From Thermasporomyces composti (lineage in GTDB: Bacteria > Actinomycetota > Actinomycetes > Propionibacteriales > Actinopolymorphaceae): DNA of 64,000 nt. The translations under genes were made by a program, and so were the position numbers. The stretch is from positions 3,720,001 through 3,784,000 of the forward strand of contig NZ_QTUC01000001.1 of NCBI RefSeq assembly GCF_003386795.1, given 5' to 3'. Under the pieces are notes generated by a model, which saw only the letters and a list, made by a program, of their open reading frames with translations, searched no databases and was not told the origin of the DNA. Shown piece after piece: positions 8,086-23,319 of the stretch. Every line of letters begins with the position of its first letter. Position 1 is the stretch's first letter.

Positions 8086-9735
8086 GTGAGCCACGGACTC
8101 AAGCGGCGGGTGGTGCTCGTCGGTGGCCTGGCGACAGGCTCCCTGCTCGGGATGAGGGGAACGGCGAGCGCCAGCGTTCCCAGCTACATCCGGAAGAATC
8201 CCTTCACCCTCGGAGTCGCGTCGGGCGACCCCAGCCACGATGGCTTCGTCCTGTGGACGCGCCTCGCGCCTGAGCCGCTGAACGACGACGGCTTGGGTGG
8301 CATGCCGAACACCGTCGTGCCGGTGAGCTGGCAGGTCGCGACCGACGAGCGCTTCCGTCGCATCGTGGCGTCGGGCACCGTTCCGGCTCGTCCCGAGAGC
8401 GCGCACAGCGTCCACGTCGAGCTCACCGGTCTCGAACCAGGCCGCGATTACTGGTACCGGTTCCGCGTGGGTCCCCACCTGTCCCGGGTCGGTCGCACGC
8501 GCACGGCGCCGGCGCCGCACGTTCTCGTCTCCAGGCTGCACATGGCGTTCACCTCCTGCCAGCACTACGAGGAGGGCTACTACAGCGCCTACCGAGGTCT
8601 CGCCAACGACATGCCCGACCTGGTGCTGCACCTCGGCGACTACCAGTACGAGTACGCCGGTGTGGAGGGCAGGCCGAGGTTCCACCTCGGCCCGGAGACC
8701 ACGACGTTGGCGAACTACCGTCAGCGGTACGCCCAGTACAAGACCGACGAGGACCTGCAGGCCGCACACGCGGCGGCGCCGTGGCTGGTCGTCTTCGACG
8801 ACCACGAGGTCGACAACAACTGGGCGGACGAGACGCCGCAAGACCCGGACCTGCAACCTCCCGAGGTGTTCCTGCCGCGACGCGCGGCGGCCTTTCAGGC
8901 GTACTACGAGAACATGCCGCTGCGGCGACGATCGATCCCGCGCGGCATCGACATGCAGGTCTATCGGCGGGTGGCGTGGGGTCGTTTGGCGACCTTCCAC
9001 ATGCTCGATACCCGGCAGTTCCGAGACGACCAAGGCTGTGGCGACGGCTACAAGGACTGCCCGGCGGCGCTCGATCCCAACCGCTCCATCCTGGGGAAGG
9101 ACCAGGAGGAGTGGTTGATCGACGGGTTCCACCGGTCCCGCGCCCAATGGGACATCCTGGGCCAACAGGTGTTCTTCGCTCAGCGCGACAACAACGCCGG
9201 GCCGGTCAAGGTCACCAGCCAAGACGCCTGGGATGGCTACGTCGCCTCACGTCAGCGCATCACGCAAGGATGGGTTGACGCCAAGGTGCGCAACCTCGTG
9301 GTGCTCACCGGAGACGTGCACGCGCACTGGGCCAGCGAGCTGAAGCTGGACTACGACGACCCGACCACGCCCACCGTGGGGACGGAGTTCGTCACCTCCT
9401 CGATCTCCTCCGGCGGGGACGGTTTCGACTCCGACCCCGCGGACCACCCGTTCCTCCAGATCAACCCGCACCTGAAGTTCTACAACAACCTGCGCGGCTA
9501 CGTCCGTGCGACGATCAGCCCGGAGCAGATGCACGTCGACTTCCGCGTCGTGCCGTACGTCTCCAGTCCCGGCGCCGAGACGTACACGCGCGCGTCGTTC
9601 GTCACGGTCGACCGCGAACCCGGCCTGCACCAGGTGTACGACAACCCGTCCATCCAAGCGGCACGACGGGCACCGCGCACCCCGCAAGAGTGGATCGACC
9701 ACACCGTCTACGAGGAGACCGAGCGGTACCGCTGA
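8086..9735 (+). CDS. phoD: Secreted PhoD-type alkaline phosphatase/phosphodiesterase (Tat substrate)
   Basis: A 549-aa exported metallophosphatase. The N-terminus has a twin-arginine motif (KRRVVLVGG) and a hydrophobic segment ending in ASAS. NPFTLGVASGDPSHDGFVLWTRL is the PhoD N-domain. Metal-binding motifs include LHLGDYQYEY, FDDHEVDNNW and LTGDVHAHWASEL. GTG at 8086 follows CGGAGGTGGA. Members hydrolyse phosphomonoesters or diesters outside the cell using Fe/Ca. The upstream PHO-box-like repeats fit phosphate control. A second, divergent copy lies at 44203-45810. Confidence 0.9.
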   Translation: MSHGLKRRVVLVGGLATGSLLGMRGTASASVPSYIRKNPFTLGVASGDPSHDGFVLWTRLAPEPLNDDGLGGMPNTVVPVSWQVATDERFRRIVASGTVPARPESAHSVHVELTGLEPGRDYWYRFRVGPHLSRVGRTRTAPAPHVLVSRLHMAFTSCQHYEEGYYSAYRGLANDMPDLVLHLGDYQYEYAGVEGRPRFHLGPETTTLANYRQRYAQYKTDEDLQAAHAAAPWLVVFDDHEVDNNWADETPQDPDLQPPEVFLPRRAAAFQAYYENMPLRRRSIPRGIDMQVYRRVAWGRLATFHMLDTRQFRDDQGCGDGYKDCPAALDPNRSILGKDQEEWLIDGFHRSRAQWDILGQQVFFAQRDNNAGPVKVTSQDAWDGYVASRQRITQGWVDAKVRNLVVLTGDVHAHWASELKLDYDDPTTPTVGTEFVTSSISSGGDGFDSDPADHPFLQINPHLKFYNNLRGYVRATISPEQMHVDFRVVPYVSSPGAETYTRASFVTVDREPGLHQVYDNPSIQAARRAPRTPQEWIDHTVYEETERYR

Positions 9736-9795
9736 CGGCTCGTCGGATCGCCCGAGGCATGGAACGAGCCGCCGCCGGAGAGTAGCGTCCGGGAT

Positions 9796-10677
9796 GTGGC
9801 GGACCCGGCGACCCGACGAGGCTCGACCACGGCGCGGCGGCGTGCGGCGAGCCGGTCCGGCCGTGCCGCCCGTGACCGGAGGCGGTCGACGCGGCCCGAC
9901 ACCGGGCTGTTCGGCCCGGAGTCGGTCACCTGGCGGGTGCACCGTGAACACCTCATGTGGGTGGCTGGTGTTCGCGCGCTGTACCTGCAGGCGCTGCACC
10001 CACGCGTGATGCGGGGAACGTTCCAGAACTCCGCGCTGTTCGACCGGGACCGAGCGTGGGGCCGGTTCGTGCGGACCACCGAGTTCGTGGCGACCCGTAC
10101 CTACGGCACGACGGCCGAGGTCCGGCGCACGTCCGCGCGTGTTCGGGCGATCCACGCCTCGCTCACCGGCTACAACCCCGACACGGGCGAGACGTTCCGG
10201 CTCGACGAACCCGAAGGATTGCTGTGGGTGCACTGCGGCGAGATCGACTCCTACGTCGATGTCGCTCGGCGCGCCGGCATCCTGCGCAGCGACGAGGAAG
10301 CCGACCAGTACGTGGCGGAGAGCCGACGCGCAGCGGAGGTGGTGGGCATCCGACGGTCGGACGCGCCCGCCTCGCGCGCCGAGCTCACCGAGTACTTCGA
10401 GCGGATGCGCCCAAAGCTGTACGTGACACCAGAAGCCAGGCGAGGGGTGCTCAACACGTTCAACCCGCCGTTTCCGCTCTTGCTCGCGCCACTTCGGCTC
10501 GCCGTCCCGTCCCTCAACGTCTTGGCGTTCGCGACGCTGCCGGCCTGGGCGCGACAGCTGTACGGCATACCCTCACCTCCGGCCACCGACCTGGCGGTGA
10601 CGCTGACGCTGCGTGCGCTGCGTCCGCTCACCGCGCTCCTGCCGCGTCCGTCCGTGCCACCGTCAACCCAGCCCTGA
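9796..10677 (+). CDS. MpaB/rubber-oxygenase-like protein (DUF2236)
   Basis: A 293-aa protein of the oxygenase MpaB/latex-clearing (DUF2236) family, with conserved WRVHREHLMWVAGVRAL, LYLQALHPRVMRG and a central WVHCGEIDSY where the family has histidine ligands. Many members bind b-type haem; substrates in most actinobacteria are unknown. The first ~30 residues are Arg-rich and probably disordered. The GTG start at 9796 has only a weak ribosome site (GGAG ~15 bases upstream), so an internal start is possible. It stands alone between phoD and ppdK. Confidence 0.75.
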   Translation: MADPATRRGSTTARRRAASRSGRAARDRRRSTRPDTGLFGPESVTWRVHREHLMWVAGVRALYLQALHPRVMRGTFQNSALFDRDRAWGRFVRTTEFVATRTYGTTAEVRRTSARVRAIHASLTGYNPDTGETFRLDEPEGLLWVHCGEIDSYVDVARRAGILRSDEEADQYVAESRRAAEVVGIRRSDAPASRAELTEYFERMRPKLYVTPEARRGVLNTFNPPFPLLLAPLRLAVPSLNVLAFATLPAWARQLYGIPSPPATDLAVTLTLRALRPLTALLPRPSVPPSTQP

Positions 10678-10803
10678 CACGAACCGGTGTGGCCCGAGCG
10701 CCACGCTGGTCCGCGGAGATACGGGGACGCGAGAGTCACCACGGATCCGGCCGACTCCGCCTAGCCTCATAGGTAACGCAGGGCAGCGGAGGAGGTCGCC
10801 CTG

Positions 10804-13497
10804 ATGTTCGTCTACGACTTCTCCCAGGGCAACAAAGACATGCGGGACCTCCTCGGCGGAAAGGGTGCCAACCTCGCCGAGATGACCAACCTGGGTCTGC
10901 CCGTCCCGCCCGGCTTCACCATCACCACCAAGGCGTGCCAGGTCTACCTGGCCACCGGCGAGGAGCCGCCCGGCCTGCGCGAGGAGGTCACCGAGCACCT
11001 ACGCCGCGTCGAGCAGGCGAGAGGACGCCGACTGGGTGACCCCGACGATCCGCTGCTGGTATCCGTGCGCTCCGGCGCGAAGTTCTCCATGCCGGGCATG
11101 ATGGACACCGTCCTCAACATCGGCCTCACCGACGCGTCCGTGCATGGCCTGGCGCGGCAGGCCGGCGACGAGCGTTTCGCCTGGGACTCCTACCGGCGGC
11201 TGATCCAGATGTACGGCAAGACCGTCATGGGAGTCGACGGCGCCCGCTTCGACGAGGCGTTGGAGGACGCCAAACGGCGTCACGGCGCCGAGCACGACGT
11301 CGACCTCGACGCGGCCGCCCTGCGCGACCTGGTCGCCTCCTACAAGCGGATCCTGCGGGAGGAGACCGGTCAGGAGTTCCCGCAGGACCCGCGTACCCAG
11401 CTGGACGCCGCGATCCGCGCGGTCTTCGAGAGCTGGAACGCCCCACGCGCGGTGATCTACCGACGGCAGGAGGGCATCAGCGACGACCTCGGGACCGCGG
11501 TGAACGTGGTGGCCATGGTGTTCGGCAACCTCGGCCCCGACTCTGGCACGGGTGTGGCCTTCACGCGCGACCCCGCGACCGGCGCCCGAGGCGTCTACGG
11601 GGACTACCTGCCCAACGCGCAGGGCGAGGACGTGGTCGCCGGGATCCGCAACACCGTCCCGTTGTCGGAGCTCGCGCGGCTGGACAAGCGCAGCTACGAC
11701 GAGCTGCTCGACATCATGGCGAGGTTGGAAGCCCACTACGCCGACCTGTGCGACATCGAGTTCACGATCGAGCGGGGCAAGCTGTGGTTGCTCCAGACAC
11801 GGGTCGGCAAGCGCACCGCGGCCGCCGCGTTCCGGATCGCCGTCCAGCTCGTCGACGAGGGCCTGATCGACGAGGAGGAGGCGCTGCGCCGAGTCGATGG
11901 ATGGCAGCTCGCCCAGCTGATGTTTCCGCGCTTCGACGAGAACGCGCGTCGGCAGGCCATCGCGAAGGGGATGAACGCCTCCCCGGGCGCCGCGGTCGGT
12001 CGAGCGGTCTTCGACAGCGCCACCGCGGTGGAGTGGGCACGGCGCGGCGAGAACGTCATCCTCGTCCGACGCGAGACCACGCCCGACGACCTAGACGGCA
12101 TGATCGCGGCGCGCGGCATCCTCACCTGTCGCGGCGGCAAGACCTCCCACGCCGCGGTGGTCGCCCGCGGCATGGGCAAGACATGCGTGTGCGGCGCGGA
12201 GGCACTCGACATCGACGTCTCCGCTCGCACCCTCACCGGGCCCGGCGGGGTCGTGGTCCGCGAGGGCGACGTGCTGTCCATCGACGGCTCCACCGGTGAG
12301 GTCTTCCTCGGCCAGATCCCAGTCGTCGACTCGCCGGTGGTCCAGTACTTCGAGGGCACACTCGATCCGGCCTCCGGTGACGACCTGGTGCGGGCCGTCG
12401 ACCGGCTCATGAAGGTCGCCGACGCCAGACGCCGACTCGGCGTCCGAGCCAACGCCGACACTCCAGCCGACGCCGAGCGCGCCCGCGCGATGGGAGCGAC
12501 GGGCATCGGACTGTGCCGGACCGAGCACATGTTCCTGGGGGAACGCCGGCGCCACGTCGAGCGGCTCATCCTGGCCGAGAGTGACACGGAGCGCGAGGCC
12601 GCGCTGGAGGCGTTGCTACCCGCCCAGCGGCGGGACTTCATCGAGATCCTGGCGGCGATGGACGGCCTGCCAGTGACGGTGCGGCTGCTCGACCCTCCGC
12701 TGCACGAGTTCCTGCCCGACCTGACCGACCTGGCGGTGCGCGTCGCCGAGGCGAGGGCACGTGGCGAGGAAGCCGCCGAGGACGCCCGCCTGTTGAGCGC
12801 GGTCCGGCGTCTCCACGAGCAGAACCCCATGCTGGGTCTCCGCGGCGTGCGGCTCGGGCTCGTCGTACCCGGGCTGTACGCGATGCAGGTGCGGGCGATC
12901 GCCGAGGCGGCGGCCCAGCGGATCGCCGAGGGCGGGGAGCCCAAGGTCGAGATCATGATTCCGCTCGTCGGCTCCGTCGAGGAGCTGGAGCGGGCGCGCG
13001 AGGAGGCGACGGCGGTCGTCGCGGAAGTCGCCGCGCGTGCCGGCGTCGACCTCGCGATCCCGATCGGAACGATGATCGAGCTGCCGCGCGCGGCCTTGAC
13101 TGCGGCCAGGATTGCTCGGTCGGCGGACTTCTTCTCCTTCGGCACCAACGACTTGACCCAGACCGTCTGGGGATTCTCGCGGGACGACGTGGAGGCCGCG
13201 TTCTTCCCCGCCTACCTCGACATGGGGATCTTCGCGGTCTCGCCCTTCGAGACCCTCGACGTCGAGGGCGTGGGGCGTCTGATCAGGCTGGCCTGTGAGG
13301 AGGGCCGCGCGGTCCGACCCGACCTCAAACTCGGCGTGTGCGGCGAGCACGGCGGTGACCCGGAGTCGGTGCGCTTCTTCCACCAGGTGGGCTTGGACTA
13401 CGTGTCGTGCTCGCCGTTCCGGGTCCCCATCGCCAGGCTGGAGGCCGGCCGCGCGGCCGTCCTGCACGGAGACGACCCCGGCTCCGACAGCCGCTGA
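10804..13497 (+). CDS. ppdK: Pyruvate, phosphate dikinase
   Basis: An 897-aa enzyme interconverting pyruvate + ATP + Pi and phosphoenolpyruvate + AMP + PPi. Domains in order: N-terminal ATP-grasp (GGKGANLAEMTNLGLPVPPGF; SVRSGAKFSMPGMMDT), central phosphohistidine domain with His449 in GGKTSHAAVVARGMG, and C-terminal TIM barrel ending in the catalytic Cys motif LGVCGEHGGDP near residue 846. Start ATG follows GGAGG. The length is full for bacterial PPDK. No regulatory kinase gene is adjacent. It probably serves gluconeogenesis or the PEP-pyruvate node. Confidence 0.95.
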   Translation: MFVYDFSQGNKDMRDLLGGKGANLAEMTNLGLPVPPGFTITTKACQVYLATGEEPPGLREEVTEHLRRVEQARGRRLGDPDDPLLVSVRSGAKFSMPGMMDTVLNIGLTDASVHGLARQAGDERFAWDSYRRLIQMYGKTVMGVDGARFDEALEDAKRRHGAEHDVDLDAAALRDLVASYKRILREETGQEFPQDPRTQLDAAIRAVFESWNAPRAVIYRRQEGISDDLGTAVNVVAMVFGNLGPDSGTGVAFTRDPATGARGVYGDYLPNAQGEDVVAGIRNTVPLSELARLDKRSYDELLDIMARLEAHYADLCDIEFTIERGKLWLLQTRVGKRTAAAAFRIAVQLVDEGLIDEEEALRRVDGWQLAQLMFPRFDENARRQAIAKGMNASPGAAVGRAVFDSATAVEWARRGENVILVRRETTPDDLDGMIAARGILTCRGGKTSHAAVVARGMGKTCVCGAEALDIDVSARTLTGPGGVVVREGDVLSIDGSTGEVFLGQIPVVDSPVVQYFEGTLDPASGDDLVRAVDRLMKVADARRRLGVRANADTPADAERARAMGATGIGLCRTEHMFLGERRRHVERLILAESDTEREAALEALLPAQRRDFIEILAAMDGLPVTVRLLDPPLHEFLPDLTDLAVRVAEARARGEEAAEDARLLSAVRRLHEQNPMLGLRGVRLGLVVPGLYAMQVRAIAEAAAQRIAEGGEPKVEIMIPLVGSVEELERAREEATAVVAEVAARAGVDLAIPIGTMIELPRAALTAARIARSADFFSFGTNDLTQTVWGFSRDDVEAAFFPAYLDMGIFAVSPFETLDVEGVGRLIRLACEEGRAVRPDLKLGVCGEHGGDPESVRFFHQVGLDYVSCSPFRVPIARLEAGRAAVLHGDDPGSDSR

Positions 13498-13546
13498 GCG
13501 ATCCGCACCTCAGGTCCGCGGACGGCGTCGCGGCAGTGCGAGTCGG

Positions 13547-13700
13547 GTCGCGAGCGCCGCCGCGACGGTGCTCAATCGTGTCGCGGGCGCCGCCGCGACG
13601 GTGTTCAATCGTGTCGCGGGCGCCGCCGCGACGGTGTTCAATCGTGTCGCGGGCGCCGCCGCGACGGTGTTCAATCGTGTCGCGGGCGCCGCCGCGACGG
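13547..13700. repeat. 33-bp tandem repeat array (~4.7 copies) of short hairpins
   Basis: Units begin at 13547, 13580, 13613, 13646 and 13679 (the last truncated at 22 bases). Copies are nearly identical: the first differs at two positions. Each unit contains GTCGCGG-GCGCCG-CCGCGAC, able to form a 7-bp stem (6 bp in the first copy). The array fills the space between the convergent ppdK and PhyH genes. All frames stay open because 33 is divisible by three, giving spurious 11-residue peptide repeats. It may act as a multi-hairpin bidirectional terminator or be a minisatellite. Confidence 0.85.
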
Positions 13701-13707
13701 GACCCAC

Positions 13708-14598
13708 TCAGATCGCAGGTGGCCACAGGCGCGGACACACCACCGGGTCCGCGTAGTCAGGAACACCATCCGAGGTACGCCGGACCAAGCGGTCGTTCGG
13801 ATGCCAGGCGAGGGTGCCGTCCGGATGCCGGTACTCCACGTAGTGGTTGTCGCCCGGCTGGAAGTGGATCGCCATGGACCGTCGCGGAGCGTCGGATCGG
13901 TTCGGCCCGCTGCCGTGCAGCAGTCGACAGTGGTGGAAACTCACCGCGCCCCGTGGAATCTCCGCGACGACCACCTGGACGTCGTGGTCGGCTCGAACCG
14001 CGTCGAGGGTCGACAAGTCGGGGTTGAAGAAGTCGAGGACCACGTCCTCGGTCCACAGGTGGCTGCCGTCGACGAACGACACCGCGCCCTCACGCTCGCC
14101 GACGTCGTGGAAAGGCACCCAGGCGGTGAGCATGTCGGTGCTGGAGCAGGTCCGCCAGTACTGCCGGTCGGTGTGCCAGCCGACGTTCGCCTTCCCCCTC
14201 CCGGCATCCGGCACCGTGTCCTCAGCGGGCTTGTAGAGCAGCTGGTCGTGCCAGAGCCGGATCGTGTCCGTACCGCTCAGCCGCGCCGCGCAGGCGGCGA
14301 GGAGTGGGTAGCGGACCAACGCGGCGAGCTCATCGACGACGAGGGAGGAGTAGTCGTTCTTCCGCAACACCTCGCCGTGCTCGGGCACCCACCCGACACG
14401 CGCTGACCCATCGGGCAGCAACCGGTCCGTGTCCCCGGCGTAGAAGCGGGCCATCCCTCGCTCGGCGGCGTCCAAGACGTCCGACGGCAGGATCGGTGGA
14501 GAGATCCAGTAGCCGTGCGTTCGATAGAACGCCACGTCGGCCTCGGTGGGAAGCAGGTGCGCGTACTCCACGAGGAGGGCATCGGGGGTCGTCGCCAT
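13708..14598 (-). CDS. Phytanoyl-CoA dioxygenase family protein (Fe(II)/2-oxoglutarate)
   Basis: A 296-aa PhyH-family oxygenase. The iron ligands are visible: His142 and Asp144 in GWHTDRQYW, and His228 in [10 protein letters not shown]. Arg239/240 before SMAIHF is the likely 2-oxoglutarate anchor. Substrate is not predictable: the family hydroxylates acyl-CoAs, ectoine, natural products and others. The gene lies alone, convergent with ppdK across the hairpin repeat array. It starts at ATG 14598, with no strong Shine-Dalgarno. A second PhyH-like gene in the window (42563-43240) is broken. Confidence 0.8.
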
Positions 14599-14739: not shown

Positions 14740-16029
14740 ATGAGCGGTTCGCGGACGTTTGACGACGGTGGCTACGGTCCGGCCGATGTGGAGCGCTGGG
14801 TGGCCGAGCCGCCGAAGAGCGCAGGTCGGACACCGTTCGCACGGGACCGAGCGCGGGTTCTCCACTCCGCCGCGCTCCGCAGGCTCGCGGCGAAGACCCA
14901 GGTGGTGGGACCCGGTGCGGATGACTTCGCGCGGACGCGCCTCACCCACACGCTCGAGGTCGCGCAGGTGGGGCGCGAGCTAGGGCAAGCCCTGGGCTGC
15001 GACCCGGACGTCGTCGACACCGCCTGCCTGGCCCACGACCTCGGGCATCCGCCGTTCGGGCACAACGGCGAGGCCGCGTTGGACGAGGTGGCCCGCCACA
15101 TCGGCGGCTTCGAAGGAAACGCCCAGACCCTTCGTGTGCTCACCCGCCTGGAAGCCAAGACCTTCGCCCCCGACGACACGGGGAAGCCGGGTGCCGGGCG
15201 CAGCGTGGGTCTCAACCTCACCCGAGCGAGCCTCGATGCCGCCACCAAGTACCCCTGGCGACGAGGCGAGGGTCCGCCGGACGTCCCGGGCAAGTTCGGC
15301 GTCTACGACGACGACCTCGAGGTCTTCACCTGGCTTCGCCGAGGTGTCACCGGGAGCCGTCGGTGCGTCGAGGCGCAGGTGATGGACTTCGCCGACGACG
15401 TGGCCTACTCCGTCCACGACGTCGAGGACGGTGTGGTCTCCGGGCGGATTCGCCTTGCTCGCCTCGCCGACCATGCCGAACGCCGCGGTGTGTGGGAGGT
15501 GGTTCGCGAGTGGTATGTCGCCGACGCGACGGACGACGAGCTCGACGCGGCGTATGACCGCCTGCGCTCCTTCGGATACTGGCCGGAGCGTGACTACGAC
15601 GGGCACCGTCGCACGCTCGCGGCGCTGAAGGACATGACCAGCCAGCTGATCGGGCGTTTCTGTCAGGCCGCGCAGGAGGCGACCCACGCCGCCTACGGCG
15701 GTGGGCGACTCACCCGCTACCGCGCCGACCTGGTCGTCCCGCGCGAGACACGGCTGGAGATCGCCGTGCTCAAGGGGATCGCGGCACGCTACGTCATGCG
15801 CTCCGAGGAGCGGTTGAGCGTGCTGGCACGCCAGCGGGAGGTCATCCACGCACTGGTCGCCGTCCTCCAGGAGCGGGCCCCCGAGGGTCTTGACCCGGCG
15901 TTTCGAGCCGACTTCGAGGCGGCGCCGGATGACGCCGCCCGGCTTCGCGTCATCGTCGACCAGGTGGCGTCCCTCACCGACGCCTCGGCACTCGCGCTGC
16001 ATCGCACCCTGGTCGAGACGCCGACCTGA
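14740..16029 (+). CDS. dgt: Deoxyguanosinetriphosphate triphosphohydrolase-like protein
   Basis: A 429-aa HD-domain dNTP triphosphohydrolase. The N-terminal segment [16 protein letters not shown] is typical, and the metal-binding HD residues are His70 in [12 protein letters not shown] and His99-Asp100 in [33 protein letters not shown] carries the fourth ligand. ATG at 14740 gives the normal family N-terminus; the open frame extends 75 codons upstream without similarity. In many actinobacteria dgt lies next to dnaG; here three unrelated genes separate them. Confidence 0.9.
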
Positions 16030-16059: not shown

Positions 16060-16096
16060 GGTGCCGCCGGTCCTGGTGGCGGGGACCGGCGGCACC
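16060..16096. terminator. Bidirectional hairpin terminator between dgt and the CofE-like gene
   Basis: A perfect 14-bp stem (GGTGCCGCCGGTCC at 16060-16073, its complement at 16083-16096) with a nine-base loop lies between two convergent genes. There is no T-tract, as is usual in this GC range. Confidence 0.7.
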
Positions 16097-16107
16097 CGTG
16101 GAGGGTC

Positions 16108-16962
16108 CTAGGCCGGACTGGCTCCGAGTTCCCCGGACCGTGAGACGGGTGCGGCGCCGCGTGGGACGGTCCGAGCGACGGCGGGCGGGCCGGCATCCCA
16201 GGAGGCCGACACGTGCGCCGGCTGCGGGCGAATGAGGAGGAACGGCGTCATCTCGTCGGACTGCCCGGCGGGGTTGTCGTGCAGGACGGCCTTGATGGCC
16301 TTGATGAAGGCCTCATCTTGGTCTCGCAGGGCCCTCGACGTGCCGAACACCTCGACGTTGAAGTCGTTGGCGTCGACGATCACCAGCGGCATGCCCAGCC
16401 GCGCGTAGACCTCCTCGGTGACACCGTCCGGGTCGATCGGGTTCAAGATGGCGTTGTCCTTGTAGAAGTCGAAGGAAGAGCGCTGGTAGAAGCCGTCGAT
16501 TCCGGCGATCCCATGACCGGCGACGCGGTAGAACACCCCGGAGCGCCCGAAGAGCTTCGTCACGCCGCTCAGGAACGCCGCCAGCAGGATGCGAGGCCGT
16601 CCGGCCAGGTTGATGGCGAGCTGTAGCTTCAACGGCTCGTCCATCGCCACGCCGTGGTCGCCCGAGCTGGCGAACTTCGACAGGGTCCTCGCCAGGAATC
16701 CGACGCGAATCTCGCGTCGGTTGACAATGTTGTTCTGGCACATCGATACGACTTTTTCTCCCGAGACGACGATGTCGCCGTCTTGGAAGAGAGGTTTGAC
16801 GTACCTCGCCAGCAGGTCGACGTAGCTTTCCCCCGGCGTCACGAAGTGGGTTTGCACGGCGAGACGCTGGTAGGCTCGGCCGTCCACCGAAACCGTGCCT
16901 CGGTCGTAGTAGACGATGTCGCCGTACCGCCGCTTGTCGGACTCACGGTTTCTGAACGCCAT
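16108..16962 (-). CDS. Coenzyme F420-0:L-glutamate ligase (CofE)-like protein
   Basis: A 284-aa protein related to the CofE family, which adds glutamate by an amide bond in GTP-dependent reactions. Visible family segments: YVKPLFQDGDIVVSGEKVVS, GRPRILLAAFLSGV, FYRVAGHGIAGIDGF, KDNAILNPIDPDGV and MPLVIVDANDFNVEVFG. The N-terminal ~35 residues and Pro/Arg-rich C-terminus are extra. True F420 biosynthesis genes (cofC, cofD, fbiC) are not in the window. Its neighbours are a MurJ flippase and an AsnB amidotransferase, so it may ligate an amino acid to a different acceptor. Base composition near its start is less GC-rich than the neighbourhood. Confidence 0.6.
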   Translation of the reverse strand: MAFRNRESDKRRYGDIVYYDRGTVSVDGRAYQRLAVQTHFVTPGESYVDLLARYVKPLFQDGDIVVSGEKVVSMCQNNIVNRREIRVGFLARTLSKFASSGDHGVAMDEPLKLQLAINLAGRPRILLAAFLSGVTKLFGRSGVFYRVAGHGIAGIDGFYQRSSFDFYKDNAILNPIDPDGVTEEVYARLGMPLVIVDANDFNVEVFGTSRALRDQDEAFIKAIKAVLHDNPAGQSDEMTPFLLIRPQPAHVSASWDAGPPAVARTVPRGAAPVSRSGELGASPA

Positions 16963-17239
16963 GATCGCCCTCTTCCCGACCTGGCTGTGTGGCTCTTTTC
17001 GGTGGCGGTCACCAGGTCAGTTCGACAATAGACACGTCGTAGCGATCCGAACCTTGAATGGCAAAAATCTGGATCGACGCGGAAGGCGGGAGAGGCGCGT
17101 AAAGATTGAGCGATTGACACCCTGATACATTCGTGGACTTTCGTCCGACACTATCGACTGCGGAGCAGCCGTGGGCTGGTGTGGAAAGACTGGCCACATC
17201 GGTGACGGAACTTGACGAGCTAGGGGACGGGGGCGGGCC

Positions 17240-18925
17240 GTGAGCGAGCGGGTCGCGGACAAGGCGCCGGACGTCGAGCTCTTGCGAGCCAGCGCGGGCA
17301 TGGCGATCGGCACCGTGGTCTCGCGGGTGACCGGATTCGTGCGCACGCTCGTCCTCGTCTGGGCGCTGGGCACCGCGCTGTTCGGGGATGCCTTCAACCT
17401 CGCCAACTCGGTGCCGAACGCGCTCTACATCCTGGTGGCGGGTGGGGCGTTGAACGCGGTCTTCGTCCCCCAGCTGGTTCGGGCGATGACCCGCGACCCA
17501 GACGGCGGCGAGGCGTTCGGACAGCGACTGCTGACCGTCGCGACCCTCATCCTGCTCGCGGTCACCGTCCTCGCCGTCGTGGGCGCACCGTGGCTCGTGT
17601 CGCTGTACGCCAGCTCGTCTCTGGCGGCTCCGGAGAATCGCCCCTACTTCGATCTCACGGTGACGTTCGCGCGGTACTGCCTGCCGCAGGTCCTCTTCTA
17701 CGGGCTGTTCGTGCTGCTCGGCCAGGTGCTCAACGCGCGGGGTCGATTCGGCCCCATGATGTGGGCACCCGTCCTGAACAACCTCGTCTCGATTGCCGTC
17801 TTCACCTCATACATCGGCATCTCCGGCGCCCACACCCCGGGGGAGATCAGCGCCGGCGAGAAGGCCCTCCTGGGGATCGGCTCCACGGCGGGCATCGCGG
17901 CCCAGATGCTGGTCTTGGTCCCGATCGTGGCGCGCACCGGCTTCCGGCTGCGTCCCCGCTTCGACTTCCGGGGCGCCGGCCTCGGCAAGTCGGGGCGACT
18001 GGCCTTGTGGACCATCGGCTTCGTCGTCGTCAACCAGGTGTGGTTCTTCGTCTCGGCCCGGCTCACCACGGGCGCGGGCATCGCGGCCGAGCAGGCCTAT
18101 GGCGACGGAGTGGGCTACGGGCTCACGCCTTTCCTCCACGCGTACACGATCGTGCAGCTGCCGCACGGCGTCATCGCCGTGTCGATCGTCTCGGCCCTGC
18201 TGCCCAAGATGAGCCGGTCGGCCAGCATCGGAGACATCGCCGCGGTCCGGGAGGACCTTTCCCAAGGCCTGCGCACGACCGCCGCGGCCGTCATGCCGGC
18301 CGCGTTCGCGTTCCTCGCGCTCGGCCCGTGGATGTGTGTCGCGATGTTCGACCACTTCGGCGCCATGAACACCGAGAGTGCGCGCGTGATCGGCTACGTC
18401 CTCATGGGGTACGCGGTCGGCTTGGTCGGGTTCTGCGGCCAGTACGTCAGCCTCCGCGGCTTCTACGCGTTCGAGGACACCCGAACCCCGTTGTTCACTC
18501 AGACCGTTCTGGTGGCGACGAGCATCGCCCTGGCCGTCGTGGCCGACGCGACGTTGCCGATCCGCTGGCGCACCGTCGGTGTCGCGACCGCGTACTCCAT
18601 CGCCTGTTGGGTCGGCCTCGCCGTCAACCTGGCCGTGCTGCGGCGACGCTGGGGCCACGTTGATGGGCGTCGATTGCTGCGCACCCATCTGCGGGTGGGG
18701 GCGGCGTCACTCGTCGCCGCCGTCGTGGCCTTCGGCGTGGCCGTGCTGTGCGCCCTCGCGCTGGGCGACGGTGCGCTCGGCGCCTTGGTCGCGGTCGTCG
18801 TGGGCGGTGTCGTCCTGCTCGCCGCCTACCTGGCGCTGGCTTGGTGGACGGGCATCGAGGAGGTCACCGACGTCCTCGCGATGGTCCGGGACGTCGTCGC
18901 CCGGGCACGCCGACGTCGGGCCTGA
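17240..18925 (+). CDS. MurJ/MviN-family lipid flippase
   Basis: A 561-aa MOP-superfamily integral membrane protein with ~14 hydrophobic segments. MurJ features: GTVVSRVTGFVRTLVLVWALG at the N-terminus, DAFNLANSVPNALYILVAGGALNAVFVPQL, and the AEQAYGDGVGYGLTPFLHAY region. MurJ flips lipid II across the membrane. The usual actinobacterial murJ lies elsewhere, near trxB/rpmH; this copy sits among a CofE-like ligase and AsnB, so it may be a second, specialised flippase. GTG at 17240 follows GGGGACGGGGG. The 277-bp upstream gap is relatively AT-rich. Confidence 0.8.
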   Translation: MSERVADKAPDVELLRASAGMAIGTVVSRVTGFVRTLVLVWALGTALFGDAFNLANSVPNALYILVAGGALNAVFVPQLVRAMTRDPDGGEAFGQRLLTVATLILLAVTVLAVVGAPWLVSLYASSSLAAPENRPYFDLTVTFARYCLPQVLFYGLFVLLGQVLNARGRFGPMMWAPVLNNLVSIAVFTSYIGISGAHTPGEISAGEKALLGIGSTAGIAAQMLVLVPIVARTGFRLRPRFDFRGAGLGKSGRLALWTIGFVVVNQVWFFVSARLTTGAGIAAEQAYGDGVGYGLTPFLHAYTIVQLPHGVIAVSIVSALLPKMSRSASIGDIAAVREDLSQGLRTTAAAVMPAAFAFLALGPWMCVAMFDHFGAMNTESARVIGYVLMGYAVGLVGFCGQYVSLRGFYAFEDTRTPLFTQTVLVATSIALAVVADATLPIRWRTVGVATAYSIACWVGLAVNLAVLRRRWGHVDGRRLLRTHLRVGAASLVAAVVAFGVAVLCALALGDGALGALVAVVVGGVVLLAAYLALAWWTGIEEVTDVLAMVRDVVARARRRRA

Positions 18926-18926
18926 C

Positions 18927-18969
18927 CCCTCTGGGCGTGCCCGCGCTGGGTGCGGGCGGGCCCAGAGGG
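18927..18969. terminator. Nested hairpin terminator between murJ-like and asnB
   Basis: CCCTCTGGGC (18927-18936) pairs with GCCCAGAGGG (18960-18969), enclosing an inner GCCCGC/GCGGGC stem. It lies between two convergent genes and can serve both. Confidence 0.7.
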
Positions 18970-18980
18970 CTGTCCCTCGC

Positions 18981-20882
18981 TCAGACCTGGACGTCGACCC
19001 GCTCGCCGACGATCGTGCTCGTCGGGTCGTTGTCGATGAAGGTGCGGAGCCACAGCTCCACGTTGAGCAGCCGCCAGAACAGCATGGTCTCGGACGCCGC
19101 GCGGCGCTCGACCAGCTTGTCGAACGCCTCGACGACGGTGGGCTGGTGCCAGTACGGGCGAGTCCCGAACGACGGGGAGCTCAGGATGGCGCGGAACTCC
19201 CGGGCCAGCACCGGGAACCACGTGCGCTCCGGGATGGTGAAGCCGATCTTGTTGCGGCGGTGTCGGACGTCCGGCGGCAACAGGTCGGCGGTCACGTCGC
19301 GGAGCACCCGCTTGTTCCAGCCGCCCGACACGATCGCCTTCGGATCGATCGCCCACAGCGTGCGCATCAAGTCCACGTCACAGAACGGCACCCGACCCTC
19401 GATCGAGAAGCGCATCGTGTTGTGGTCCTCGTAGCGCAGCAGGCACGGCAGGCTGTGGCGGAACACGTCGTCCTCGAGCCGGCGCTTGATGTCGTCGGGG
19501 ACCACGTCGAACCGTTCGTCCGCGTACTCCATCAGAAACGCGGGCGCGAGCATGTCGGTGACGGTGAGCGAGTCACGTCCGTGGAGTCGGTCGAACAGCC
19601 GGAAGCGACCCATCCGCCACAGCACGTCCAGCGACCGGGCGAGGCCGCCGGCGGCCCGGACCGAGCCACCGGTCCGACGCAGGTGGCGGAGATAGACCAG
19701 GTGGTACGCCGCGTAACCGGCGAGGAGCTCGTCGGCCCCTTGGCCGTCGATCATGACGGTCACGTGTTTGCTTGCCTCGCGCATCACGCAGTACTGCGCG
19801 TAGGGGGCGGTCGAGACGACCGGTTCCTGTTGGGTGCGGAGGAAGTCGCTCAGGTCGGCGATGAAGCGCTGCGGGCTGGGCGCCACCTTGTGCACGACCA
19901 GGGAGTCGGAGCAGGTCGCGGCGACGGCGTCGATGTAGCGCTCCTCGTCGTTGAGCTCACCCGGGAAGATCGCCGAGAAGGTCTGCTGGCGCGGGCCGAG
20001 CGACTCGGTGTCGCGGCTATGCCGGGCGAGTGCCCGGTTCAGCGTGGCCACGATCGTCGACGAGTCCAGTCCGCCGGAGAGGGCGGTGCCCACCGGGACG
20101 TCGCTGACGAGCCGCTGCTCGATCGCGGTGGTCAGTGCCTCCGCGAACCGGCGCCGCGCGTCCTCGTCGTACGGCTCATTACGCTCGGCGAGGTCCCGCA
20201 GCTCCTCGTACAGGCGGGTGTAGGTGCGCACGTGCACCCTGCCGTCCGGGGTGATCGTCGCGGCCTGGCCCGGCAGCAGGCGGGTGATCCCGTCGAAGAA
20301 GGTGCGTTCGGTGTCGTCGTGGACCCGGTAGCGCAGGTAGCGGTAGATCGTGCGGTCGTCCGGACGGCGCGCCACTCGCCCGGTGGCCAGCAACGCGCCG
20401 ATCTCGCTGGCGAACAGCGCCTCGCCGGCGACGCCGGTCGCGAGGTACAGCGGCTTGATCCCGAAGTGGTCGCGGGCCAACACGACCGTTCCGGTGGTGG
20501 TGTCGGCGATGGCGAGCGCGAACATGCCGTTGAAGCGATCGAAGGCCGCCTGACCCCACACCTCGTACGCGACCAGGACGACCTCGGTGTCCGAGGCGGT
20601 GCGGAACTCCCGGCCCAGGTGCGCCAGCTCCTCCCGCAGCTCGCGGAAGTTGTAGACCTCGCCGTTGTAGATGAGCACGTAGCGACCGTCCCGGGACACC
20701 ATGGGCTGCTGGCCGCCGGCCCGGTCGATGATCGCCAGCCGCTGGTGGGCGAAGCCGAACCGCTCGCCGACGTAGGTCGTCTGGCCGTCCGGGCCGCGGT
20801 GTCGCTGCGCCTGGTTCATCACGTCCAGCAGCGGCGCGCCTTCGAGCTCGCCCAGCCCCACATAACCCGCGATACCGCACAC
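18981..20882 (-). CDS. asnB: Asparagine synthase-type glutamine amidotransferase
   Basis: A 633-aa class II glutamine amidotransferase. Cys2 (MCGIAGYVG) is the glutaminase nucleophile, with RHRGPD, RLAIID and YNGEVYNFREL in that domain. The synthetase domain has the PP-loop SGGLDSST near residue 250, DGQGADELLAGY and RNKIGFTIPERTWF. GTG at 20882 follows GGGGGGA. It may make asparagine, but homologues of this type also amidate peptidoglycan, lipopeptides or other carboxylates; beside MurJ and a CofE-like ligase that is plausible here. It converges on murJ with only 55 bp between stops. Confidence 0.85.
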   Translation of the reverse strand: MCGIAGYVGLGELEGAPLLDVMNQAQRHRGPDGQTTYVGERFGFAHQRLAIIDRAGGQQPMVSRDGRYVLIYNGEVYNFRELREELAHLGREFRTASDTEVVLVAYEVWGQAAFDRFNGMFALAIADTTTGTVVLARDHFGIKPLYLATGVAGEALFASEIGALLATGRVARRPDDRTIYRYLRYRVHDDTERTFFDGITRLLPGQAATITPDGRVHVRTYTRLYEELRDLAERNEPYDEDARRRFAEALTTAIEQRLVSDVPVGTALSGGLDSSTIVATLNRALARHSRDTESLGPRQQTFSAIFPGELNDEERYIDAVAATCSDSLVVHKVAPSPQRFIADLSDFLRTQQEPVVSTAPYAQYCVMREASKHVTVMIDGQGADELLAGYAAYHLVYLRHLRRTGGSVRAAGGLARSLDVLWRMGRFRLFDRLHGRDSLTVTDMLAPAFLMEYADERFDVVPDDIKRRLEDDVFRHSLPCLLRYEDHNTMRFSIEGRVPFCDVDLMRTLWAIDPKAIVSGGWNKRVLRDVTADLLPPDVRHRRNKIGFTIPERTWFPVLAREFRAILSSPSFGTRPYWHQPTVVEAFDKLVERRAASETMLFWRLLNVELWLRTFIDNDPTSTIVGERVDVQV

Positions 20883-21408
20883 GAGAATCCCCCCACGTCT
20901 CGGTCGTGACTTCGTCCCACGGCGGTCGTCTCCCGCGGGACCGCGCGTTCACCAGCGACCGTCCAGAATGCCGGCGAAGAATTGAGAAAGTCGCTCGACG
21001 AGACCTCGGTTCGATTCGTATCCAGTGAGACCGGTCGCGTCGAGAACCAAATGTGTATTGAACGTCTAGAGTGCGACCACCGTCTTTGTCGCTCCCTTCT
21101 CCACGGCCACCACAACCGTACCCGGGGAGGTCGGTGTCGGTGACTAAATGGCCGCAAGCCGAGAATGGTCGCGGAAGGACCGACGGCGAATGTCGGGCAC
21201 AAATTTCGCGGTACGCGAATTCGTGGTGACGCGGCGGTGGTCTCCGGAGCTCGACGGGCGGGATGTCAAGGAACGCTGGCGTCCGGTCGCCACGCCCGGT
21301 CCTCCGCGTCGTCGTGGCGGCGCGCGGTGGCGGAGGGTCAGCTGCCCGCTACGGCACGCCGTGTGGCCGGCCGCCGGCGGGCGGTCGGTGGAGTCGTAGA
21401 CTCCGACC
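20883..21408. other. 526-bp divergent intergenic region asnB/dnaG
   Basis: No convincing gene is seen. The part 20960-21200 is visibly less GC-rich than its surroundings, like the gap at 16963-17239 on the other side of the three-gene block. It contains GACCGGTC within GAGACCGGTCGCG near 21030, the same 8-bp palindrome found in the 29.3-kb repeat array. It presumably holds the asnB and dnaG promoters; no confident -35/-10 pair was found. Confidence 0.4.
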
Positions 21409-23319
21409 ATGGCTGGCCGGATCCGCGACGAGGACATCGCGCTGGTCCGCGAGCGTACCCGCATCGACGAGGTCGTCTCGCAGTACGTCACACTGCGTCC
21501 CGCCGGCGGAGGATCGCTGAAGGGGCTGTGCCCGTTCCACGAGGAGAAGACCCCGTCGTTCAACGTTCGTCCGCACGTCGGCGCGTTCCACTGCTTCGGC
21601 TGCGCCGAGGGCGGCGACGTCATCTCCTTCCTACGCAAGATCGAGGGCCTCAGCTTCGTCGAGGCGGTCGAGCGCTTGGCGGCCCGGGCCGGTATCACCC
21701 TGCGCTACGTCGACGGGGGCCGCTCGGAGCGCCGTGAGCACGGGAGTCGCGCGCGCCTGCTCGAGGCGCACAAGGCGGCGGCGGAGTTCTACGCCGAGCA
21801 GTTGCACACCTCACCCGAGGCGGCTCCGGGACGCGCGTTCCTCGCCGACCGCGGCTTCGACCGCGCGGCCGCGGAGATGTTCGGCGTCGGCTACGCGCCG
21901 CGCGAGTCGACGGCGCTGCTCCGGCACCTGCGTGGTCGCGGTTTCAGCGACGAGGAGCTCATTACCGGCGGTCTGGTGTCGTCCGGTGTTCGCGGACGCT
22001 ACGACCGCTTCCGTGGCCGGCTGGTGTGGCCGATCCGGGACCTGTCCGGTGCCGTCGTCGGTTTCGGGGCGCGCCGGCTCTTCGACGACGACCGGATCGA
22101 AGCCAAGTACCTCAACACTCCCGAGACGCCGATCTACCGCAAGAGCCAGGTGCTGTACGGGGTCGACCTGGCTCGTCGGGAGATCGCCCGACGCTCCCAG
22201 GCTGTCGTCGTCGAGGGCTACACCGACGTGATGGCCTGTCACCTCGCCGGTGTCACCACCGCGGTGGCGACGTGCGGCACCGCGTTCGGTGAGGACCACG
22301 CGCAGGTCCTGCGCAGGCTCATGCTCGACCACGACGAGTTCCTGGGCGAGGTGATCTTCACCTTCGACGGTGACGAGGCCGGCCAGCGGGCCGCGATGCG
22401 GGCGTTCGAAGGCAGCGACGAGCGCTTCGTGTCCCAGACCTACGTCGCGGTCGAGCCGTCCGGCCTGGACCCCTGCGACCTGCGGCTCAAGCACGGCGAC
22501 GCGGCGGTCCGCGACCTCATCGCGCGCCGGGTCCCGCTCTACCGGTTCGTGCTGGAGACCCGACTCCAGCGCTACGACCTCGATCGCGCCGACGGTCGGG
22601 TGGACGCGCTGCGCGCCACCGCCCCCTTGGTCGCCCACGTCAGGGACAAGGCGAAGGTCATCGCCTACGCCCGCGAGCTGGCCGGCATGCTCGGCATGGA
22701 CGTCGAGGAGGTTCGGGCCGAGGTCGACAAGGTGTTGGCGGCGCAGGGACGGAACACCCGGGGGGCGCGACGCAACGGTGCTCCGGTGCGGGCGGCTCGG
22801 GGTGGTCGCTCGGGCGCGCCGGCCACGCCGCTTCCCGATCCGAACGACCGGAACCTGTTCCCCGAGCGTGAGTTGCTCAAGCTGGTCGTCCAGTCACCCA
22901 CCTTGGTCGGTCCGGCGTTCGACACGCTCGAGGACGAGGACTTCAGCCATCCCGCCTACGTCGCGGTCCGTCGCGCGGTGCACGCCGCCGGTGGCGCCGG
23001 CACGTCACCCGGCGGCGAGAGGTGGCTGGCCGCACTGACCGAGCACGCCGCCGACGAGGGGGTGCGGAACCTCATCACCGCGCTGGCTGTCGAGTCGTTC
23101 CACGCCAGCCGCACACCGGACGTCGGTTACGCCGAGGCGCTCCTCGCGCGGGTGCAGGAGCTCGCCACCTCCCGACGGATCGCTGAGGTGAAGCGCCGGC
23201 TCCAGCGGATGAACCCGATCGAGCGCACGGACGAGTACAACCGGCTGTTCGGGGAGCTCGTGGCCTTGGAGCAGCACCGGCGAGCGCTGCGGGAACGGGC
23301 TGCCGGCAGCCCGAGCTGA
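21409..23319 (+). CDS. dnaG: DNA primase DnaG
   Basis: A 636-aa replication primase. The zinc ribbon at the N-terminus has Cys41-x2-His44 (CPFHEEKTPSFNV) and Cys62-x2-Cys65 (HCFGCAEGGD). The RNA polymerase core carries a Toprim motif EGYTDVMACH near residue 265 and the TFDGDEAG acidic motif near 325. A linker follows, then the helicase-binding C-terminal domain (ERELLKLVVQ onward). Length is normal for actinobacteria. ATG at 21409 gives the standard MAGRIRDEDI start, with only a modest ribosome site. Confidence 0.95.
   Translation: MAGRIRDEDIALVRERTRIDEVVSQYVTLRPAGGGSLKGLCPFHEEKTPSFNVRPHVGAFHCFGCAEGGDVISFLRKIEGLSFVEAVERLAARAGITLRYVDGGRSERREHGSRARLLEAHKAAAEFYAEQLHTSPEAAPGRAFLADRGFDRAAAEMFGVGYAPRESTALLRHLRGRGFSDEELITGGLVSSGVRGRYDRFRGRLVWPIRDLSGAVVGFGARRLFDDDRIEAKYLNTPETPIYRKSQVLYGVDLARREIARRSQAVVVEGYTDVMACHLAGVTTAVATCGTAFGEDHAQVLRRLMLDHDEFLGEVIFTFDGDEAGQRAAMRAFEGSDERFVSQTYVAVEPSGLDPCDLRLKHGDAAVRDLIARRVPLYRFVLETRLQRYDLDRADGRVDALRATAPLVAHVRDKAKVIAYARELAGMLGMDVEEVRAEVDKVLAAQGRNTRGARRNGAPVRAARGGRSGAPATPLPDPNDRNLFPERELLKLVVQSPTLVGPAFDTLEDEDFSHPAYVAVRRAVHAAGGAGTSPGGERWLAALTEHAADEGVRNLITALAVESFHASRTPDVGYAEALLARVQELATSRRIAEVKRRLQRMNPIERTDEYNRLFGELVALEQHRRALRERAAGSPS

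Follow-up and report, generated by a model that had tools for sequence, protein, structure and literature searches.

We analysed a 64,000 nucleotide stretch of the Thermasporomyces composti genome (positions 3,720,001 to 3,784,000 of a 4.37 Mb chromosome), called the window below. Between dgt and dnaG, the window carries a block of three genes that encode a CofE-like amide ligase, a MurJ-family flippase and an AsnB-type class II glutamine amidotransferase. In other bacteria, the families of these three genes are linked in pairs. An original prediction, made from the sequence alone, had placed these genes between dgt and dnaG; all three are real, complete and where it put them. The features are listed below in window coordinates.

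14740 to 16029, plus strand: dgt (NF002829, 620 bits), the left boundary
16108 to 16962, minus strand: CofE-like amide ligase, 284 amino acids, clade B (PF01996, 29.3 bits), with D156 and D197 kept
16963 to 17239: gap of 277 bp between the divergent CofE-like and MurJ starts, guanine plus cytosine (G+C) fraction 0.588
17240 to 18925, plus strand: MurJ, extra copy of canonical type, 561 amino acids (TIGR01695, 348 bits)
18981 to 20882, minus strand: AsnB-type class II glutamine amidotransferase, 633 amino acids (TIGR01536, 400 bits)
20883 to 21408: gap of 526 bp between the divergent AsnB and dnaG starts, G+C 0.662, ordinary
21409 to 23319, plus strand: dnaG, the right boundary

The dgt–dnaG interval and its contents

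The MurJ and AsnB genes converge, and the CofE-like/MurJ and AsnB/dnaG pairs diverge. Because the strand order is minus, plus, minus, a single operon is ruled out; the block consists of three separate transcription units. No sigma-70-type consensus promoter was found in the gap between the CofE-like and MurJ starts. Similarly, there was no Rfam match to an RNA element (expect value, E, up to 0.5) between positions 16900 and 21450.

It had been proposed that dgt and dnaG are often close neighbours in actinobacteria. The two genes lie within 1.5 kb of each other in 3 of 18 relatives but were not found that close in the others. A single gene of 413 amino acids separates them in G002, G003 and G006; it encodes an oxidoreductase by Pfam in G002 and is of equal length in the other two. 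Several genes occupy the interval in G001, G004 and G005, dgt was not found in G007, and it was only weakly matched in G008. The dgt–dnaG interval is a variable site. When approximately 10 to 12 kb upstream of dnaG was examined in 11 relatives, nothing there matched the CofE-like, MurJ or AsnB genes. The block is specific to this genome among the genomes examined.

The original prediction took low G+C in the two upstream gaps as a sign of acquisition. For the first gap the observation stands; at 0.588 it is the poorest of the 30 window gaps longer than 100 bp (mean 0.694, standard deviation 0.037). Conversely, the second gap is within one standard deviation of this mean. The CofE-like gene, with a G+C of 0.650, is 1.8 standard deviations low in comparison with the 52 called genes of the window (mean 0.694, standard deviation 0.025). 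The MurJ (0.700) and AsnB (0.693) genes are ordinary. Acquisition of the whole block was rejected as a conclusion from G+C, since the deviation is confined to the first gap and the CofE-like gene. The evidence supports a recent arrival of the block at its position and of the CofE-like gene, the latter by both composition and nearest kin. The case is weaker for AsnB, which has counterparts of 69–70% identity elsewhere in four of seven family genomes.

The CofE-like protein and its relatives

The window CofE-like protein fails the TIGR01916 equivalog model for F420 ligases (20.4 bits, cut-off 180.65). L111, the other family member scanned with an F420-ligase model, fails too. An AlphaFold2 model of the window protein (mean predicted local distance difference test score 88) matches Archaeoglobus fulgidus CofE (PDB 2PHN) with a Z score of 14.3 and a root-mean-square deviation of 3.0 over 186 residues at 22% identity; the best unrelated structure reached a Z score of only 4.2. 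The window protein, as modelled, has the CofE fold. All 50 sequences compared share residues D156 and D197, and the window protein keeps 20 of 22 near-invariant family columns. Through the family profile, whose domain scores here are weak (whole-sequence E 0.0003), D156 and D197 align with D109 and D150 of A. fulgidus CofE, which we take to be metal-binding aspartates. The predicted fold and these two aspartates are what the protein shares with CofE and the FbiB N-domain (PDB 2PHN, 7ULD).

Compared with the FbiB of the same genome, the CofE-like family is approximately 37 residues longer before the first aspartate and approximately 20 residues shorter after the second. Eight aligned CofE-like rows have a 14-residue gap over the FbiB segment TFGRPWRLGQTDLA. 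Contacts with F420 through G153–C155 and a domain-swapped hairpin have been described (PMC10861534). The missing TFGRPWRLGQTDLA piece may belong to this F420-contacting hairpin or segment. The CofE-like enzyme probably does not work on F420. Furthermore, FbiB, FolC and MurT are encoded elsewhere in this genome, with FolC at positions 828736–829986 (335 bits). Hence, F420, folate and ordinary lipid II amidation already have candidate enzymes, and roles for the CofE-like protein in F420 or folate metabolism are weakened. With a full FolC present, it does not stand in for a missing one.

A scan of named genomes with the window protein alone found no relative. A family profile of 19 sequences was searched against 296 class genomes and 396 phylum genomes. 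At E up to 0.001 it matched 15 of the former, 12 of them above 200 bits, and 37 of the latter, where 24 reached at least 130 bits. The remaining matches include one fragment of 50 bits (G542); the others, at approximately 20 bits, are probably true F420 ligases. Scanning named genomes with 12 clade-B rows, five of them AsnB-fused and one AsnB-adjacent, gave at least 556 relatives, of which the best 80 loci were analysed. These 80 derive from Clostridia, Chloroflexi, Dormiibacterota, Patescibacteria, Thermotogota, WOR-3, Armatimonadota and Actinomycetota. Together with 23 same-family loci, 37 class or phylum loci, L171 and L172, they make up 142 CofE-like loci other than the window's. At least two are duplicates (L181 and L208 appear to repeat L147 and L111), and some flanks end at contig ends. 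The CofE-like frame is in two pieces in L153 and L154, as is the MurJ frame in L153, and these were counted from the pieces.

In a midpoint-rooted tree of 58 CofE-like domains, 28 rows form clade A (support 100/99). Nineteen of these have MurJ nearby; they span several families and include a hopanoid-type locus of the window's own family. The window is among the other 30 rows, with the AsnB-fused, LexA-linked and ATP-grasp-linked sequences. It pairs with L152 (support 100/99), and the branches are long.

Links to AsnB, MurJ and other neighbours

Six of the 37 class or phylum loci (L111, L112, L145, L146, L147 and L149) hold CofE-like and AsnB sequences in one open frame, although the L147 fusion runs off its contig end. 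The two are neighbours in one further locus, L150. Among the best 80 of at least 556 named loci, 28 are fused and two adjacent, counting AsnB matches of at least 100 bits and leaving out three weaker ones. Because the query alignment was rich in fused rows, the 28 of 80 is a biased proportion. The fused or adjacent records come from Chloroflexi, Dormiibacterota, Bacillota, Actinomycetota and Microgenomates. Pfam reports GATase_7, Asn_synthase and F420_ligase together in L111, L145, L243 and L222, the last a natural fusion from Symbiobacterium. The fusion suggests that both activities act on one molecule in turn. With regard to plasmid spread, a PLSDB search with the CofE-like domain of L145, one of the fused proteins, gave no match. 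In the L112 fusion (8862–11465), the AsnB half has neither the N-terminal Cys nor the SGG loop (Asn_synthase, 50 bits); it may be degenerate, perhaps a structural remnant.

Enzymes of the AsnB type convert carboxylates to amides, taking the ammonia from glutamine. The window AsnB begins MCGIAG, with the N-terminal Cys, and has the SGGLDSS ATP loop. It scores 457–478 bits with the AsnB parts of L111, L145, L146, L149 and L150 (161 with L112). With the remaining AsnB-type proteins of 18 relatives, the four counterparts of 69–70% identity being set aside, its score does not exceed 216 bits. In an AsnB tree, nine generic paralogs form one group (support 100), and the window group joins the fused L243 with a Shimodaira–Hasegawa-like approximate likelihood ratio test (SH-aLRT) value of 80. 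This value is modest in a quick tree that has few generic rows and several long branches, and hence the tree was not used alone. The window AsnB is of the same enzyme class as the AsnB-type peptidoglycan amidotransferases LtsA and Listeria AsnB. According to PMC8554201, an AsnB relative amidates the stem-peptide diaminopimelate in Listeria.

Three MurJ-family genes of this genome exceed the Pfam cut-off. The syntenic canonical copy is at 2,137,662, where all 15 called genes of the region match G002 in the same order. The window MurJ is 64–66% identical to that copy, passes TIGR01695 (347.7 bits, cut-off 235.55) and keeps 139 of 150 columns that are invariant across nine canonical MurJ proteins. 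Compared with the MurJ lipid II flippase (PDB 7WAW, 6CC4), it scores 115 bits to 7WAW. There is one canonical-type MurJ in each of seven other family genomes. Unlike these, the window MurJ is an extra copy, and it branches outside them (quick tree; SH-aLRT 98 with and 96 without it). Either an old duplication or transfer from a close relative produced it.

Proximity of CofE-like and MurJ-family genes recurs. The two are within 3 kb in 11 of the 23 same-family loci, seven of these being the hopanoid-type locus with two regulator genes in between (a kinase and a response regulator by Pfam in L036). They are also close in 11 of the 37 class or phylum loci, adjoining in nine and 1–2 kb apart in two. 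Two of the best 80 named loci, both in Patescibacteria, also have them close together. In L238, MurJ (Pfam, 263 bits) starts 7 bases past the CofE-like stop on the same strand; in L235, a GNAT-like gene, assigned by eye, lies between CofE-like and a Pfam-confirmed MurJ. Of the 25 CofE-like places in eight family genomes, 12 have a MurJ-family gene no more than 3 kb away, where 0.1 would be expected. Orthologous places are not independent, and so these represent about four separate contexts. Families f23, f71/f79/f87 and f82, and the Patescibacteria, provide further ones.

The clade-A MurJ partners included in the MurJ tree form one clade apart from canonical MurJ, and their three main groups match those of the CofE-like tree. 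This mirroring suggests that the clade-A CofE-like protein and MurJ are a stable pair. The MurJ of L238 groups on the clade-A partner side and that of L158 on the canonical side, both on long branches. The locus conserved in seven family genomes (L036, 7419–11597; L038, L039, L042, L044, L049 and L057) contains a divergent MurJ-like flippase, a sensor kinase, a response regulator, a clade-A CofE-like gene and genes that appear hopanoid-like by eye. It is possibly a hopanoid-linked flippase system.

MurT-GatD is the lipid II amidating enzyme. L152, the nearest relative of the window CofE-like protein (47–48% identical), is encoded downstream of a MurT-GatD fusion on the same strand. MurT-GatD was not seen beside L171, L172 (cut by a contig end) or G542 in L163 (a fragment match only), and a general link to it is unsupported. 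As lipid II isoglutaminyl synthase, MurT/GatD likewise forms an amide on an envelope precursor. Conversely, it is of a different enzyme family from the window genes, and the window genome keeps a separate MurT. DivIVA adjoins the AsnB-CofE pair in L150 and L255, and the full run in L150 is SepF-ProC-AsnB-CofE-DivIVA. An ATP-grasp gene of sugar-transfer type adjoins CofE-like in all five loci of the actinobacterial family f39 by cluster (L106–L110; two confirmed by Pfam), and a sugar-transfer-associated ATP-grasp gene does so in Clostridia (L225, 3891–5607). CofE-like is fused to tetratricopeptide repeats in L161 by Pfam, and in L158 by likeness to L161.

Three observations stand apart. In L159 (9195–11323), CofE-like is followed directly by an Orn/Lys/Arg decarboxylase-like gene. 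In L148 and L151 (family f80), it is near a GGGtGRT-family gene (PF14057). Finally, the window contains a tandem repeat at 13543–13700 (4.8 copies of a 33-bp unit, 97% match), between an 897-amino-acid gene ending at 13497 and a convergent gene ending at 13708.

A possible role on a lipid-linked envelope precursor

The original prediction envisaged a system that adds an amino-acid or glutamyl unit to a lipid-linked precursor, amidates it and flips the product. The pairwise gene links fit this proposal, and what we infer beyond them is the chemistry, the substrate and the joint action of the three window genes. The MurJ, MurT-GatD and DivIVA/SepF neighbours point towards a lipid-linked envelope precursor. 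In such a scheme, the CofE-like enzyme would use a nucleoside triphosphate and metal to activate a carboxylate, and would join to it an amino acid, probably glutamate or another small one. A carboxylate left free on that molecule would then be amidated by the AsnB partner. The most likely substrate would be a lipid-linked envelope precursor, for example lipid II or a comparable carrier, and its modified form would be flipped by the extra MurJ. The first step would resemble that of CofE, for which PMC10861534 describes carboxylate activation by GTP and two metals, followed by attack of glutamate on the acyl intermediate. We assign a probability of roughly 0.37 to the reading in which an amino-acid ligase and an amidotransferase act on a lipid-linked envelope precursor flipped by MurJ.

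Several observations weigh against that reading. The strands of the three genes alternate. Co-occurrence was the test that the original prediction had named; CofE-AsnB links appear in several phyla, as fusions, and CofE-like and MurJ genes lie near each other, but AsnB and MurJ were both beside CofE-like in 0 of the 142 other loci, in the flanks covered. The four family counterparts of AsnB are beside neither CofE-like nor MurJ. MurT-GatD is next to only one of the four nearest relatives, and MurJ is missing from the vicinity of 9 of the 28 clade-A rows. The MurJ of the clade-A pair belongs to a different clade, at 26–31% identity, and in seven loci it is beside genes that look hopanoid-like by eye; hence, its cargo may not be lipid II. 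In addition, many CofE-like loci have neighbours unrelated to the envelope, such as LexA, topoisomerase, Pup ligase and histidine genes.

Three other explanations were weighed. The genes may be chance neighbours brought together at a variable dgt–dnaG site: MurJ as an extra copy, the CofE-like gene by acquisition and AsnB by relocation. The three would then work independently, with AsnB acting as an asparagine synthase and MurJ serving as a spare flippase for lipid II. The alternating strands, the different genes in this interval in several relatives and the lack of all three genes in any of the 142 other loci fit this view. Moreover, no other full AsnB is encoded in this genome, and the window AsnB passes the model for asparagine synthase, with unremarkable composition and codon use. 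However, the CofE-AsnB and CofE-MurJ links recur across lineages, and both would have to be coincidence here. CofE-fused AsnBs also give the window AsnB twice the score that generic paralogs do. We rank chance assembly slightly below the envelope-precursor reading and well above the two alternatives that follow. One of these, which we regard as improbable, is that the product is a soluble peptide amide. The CofE-like enzyme would join amino acids and AsnB would amidate them, as in the N-acetylglutaminylglutamine amide pathway, with MurJ unrelated. A nearby MurJ was found for none of the 28 fusions among the best 80 of at least 556 loci, and CofE-like is paired with an ATP-grasp gene in one family and one Clostridia locus. 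With the N-acetylglutaminylglutamine amidotransferase model, the window AsnB reaches 318 bits, but this is below the cut-off of 570, and the MurJ, MurT-GatD and DivIVA-SepF neighbourhoods would be left unexplained.

The other alternative concerns FolC2. The one described family member with a role other than F420 that we found is CT611 of Chlamydia (COG1478), presented as FolC2 in PMC1971073, where it complements an Escherichia coli folC mutant. It is of the same superfamily, likened here by description. By analogy, the window enzyme could polyglutamylate folate or another soluble cofactor, its partners being incidental. Successive addition of glutamates by CofE, described in PMC10861534, would suit such a role. 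Conversely, the host has its own full FolC, as well as FbiB, and no folate gene was among the Pfam-scanned neighbours, which are a part of all neighbours. The AsnB fusion and MurJ adjacency would also go unexplained. A FolC2-like function is therefore doubtful, to much the same degree as a soluble peptide amide.

Substituted-D-Glu peptidoglycans occur in some actinobacteria. A narrower form of the envelope-precursor reading is that the CofE-like/AsnB pair attaches an amino acid to a lipid II stem-peptide carboxylate, such as the alpha-carboxyl of D-Glu, and then amidates the product. The pair would be a hitherto undescribed enzyme set, present in several phyla, and the missing ligase for such peptidoglycans, with a dedicated MurJ copy for the modified precursor. 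We think this specific version improbable. In the open-licence literature, we found no paper on the AsnB-CofE fusion or the CofE-MurJ link.

Taken together, a large family filed by Pfam under F420_ligase is tied to an amidotransferase by fusion, and to a lipid II-type flippase by adjacency. A single purified fusion protein would be enough to put the question to the test. If it is true that the pair modifies envelope precursors, cell-wall chemistry would gain a new step, and the names of these genes would change.

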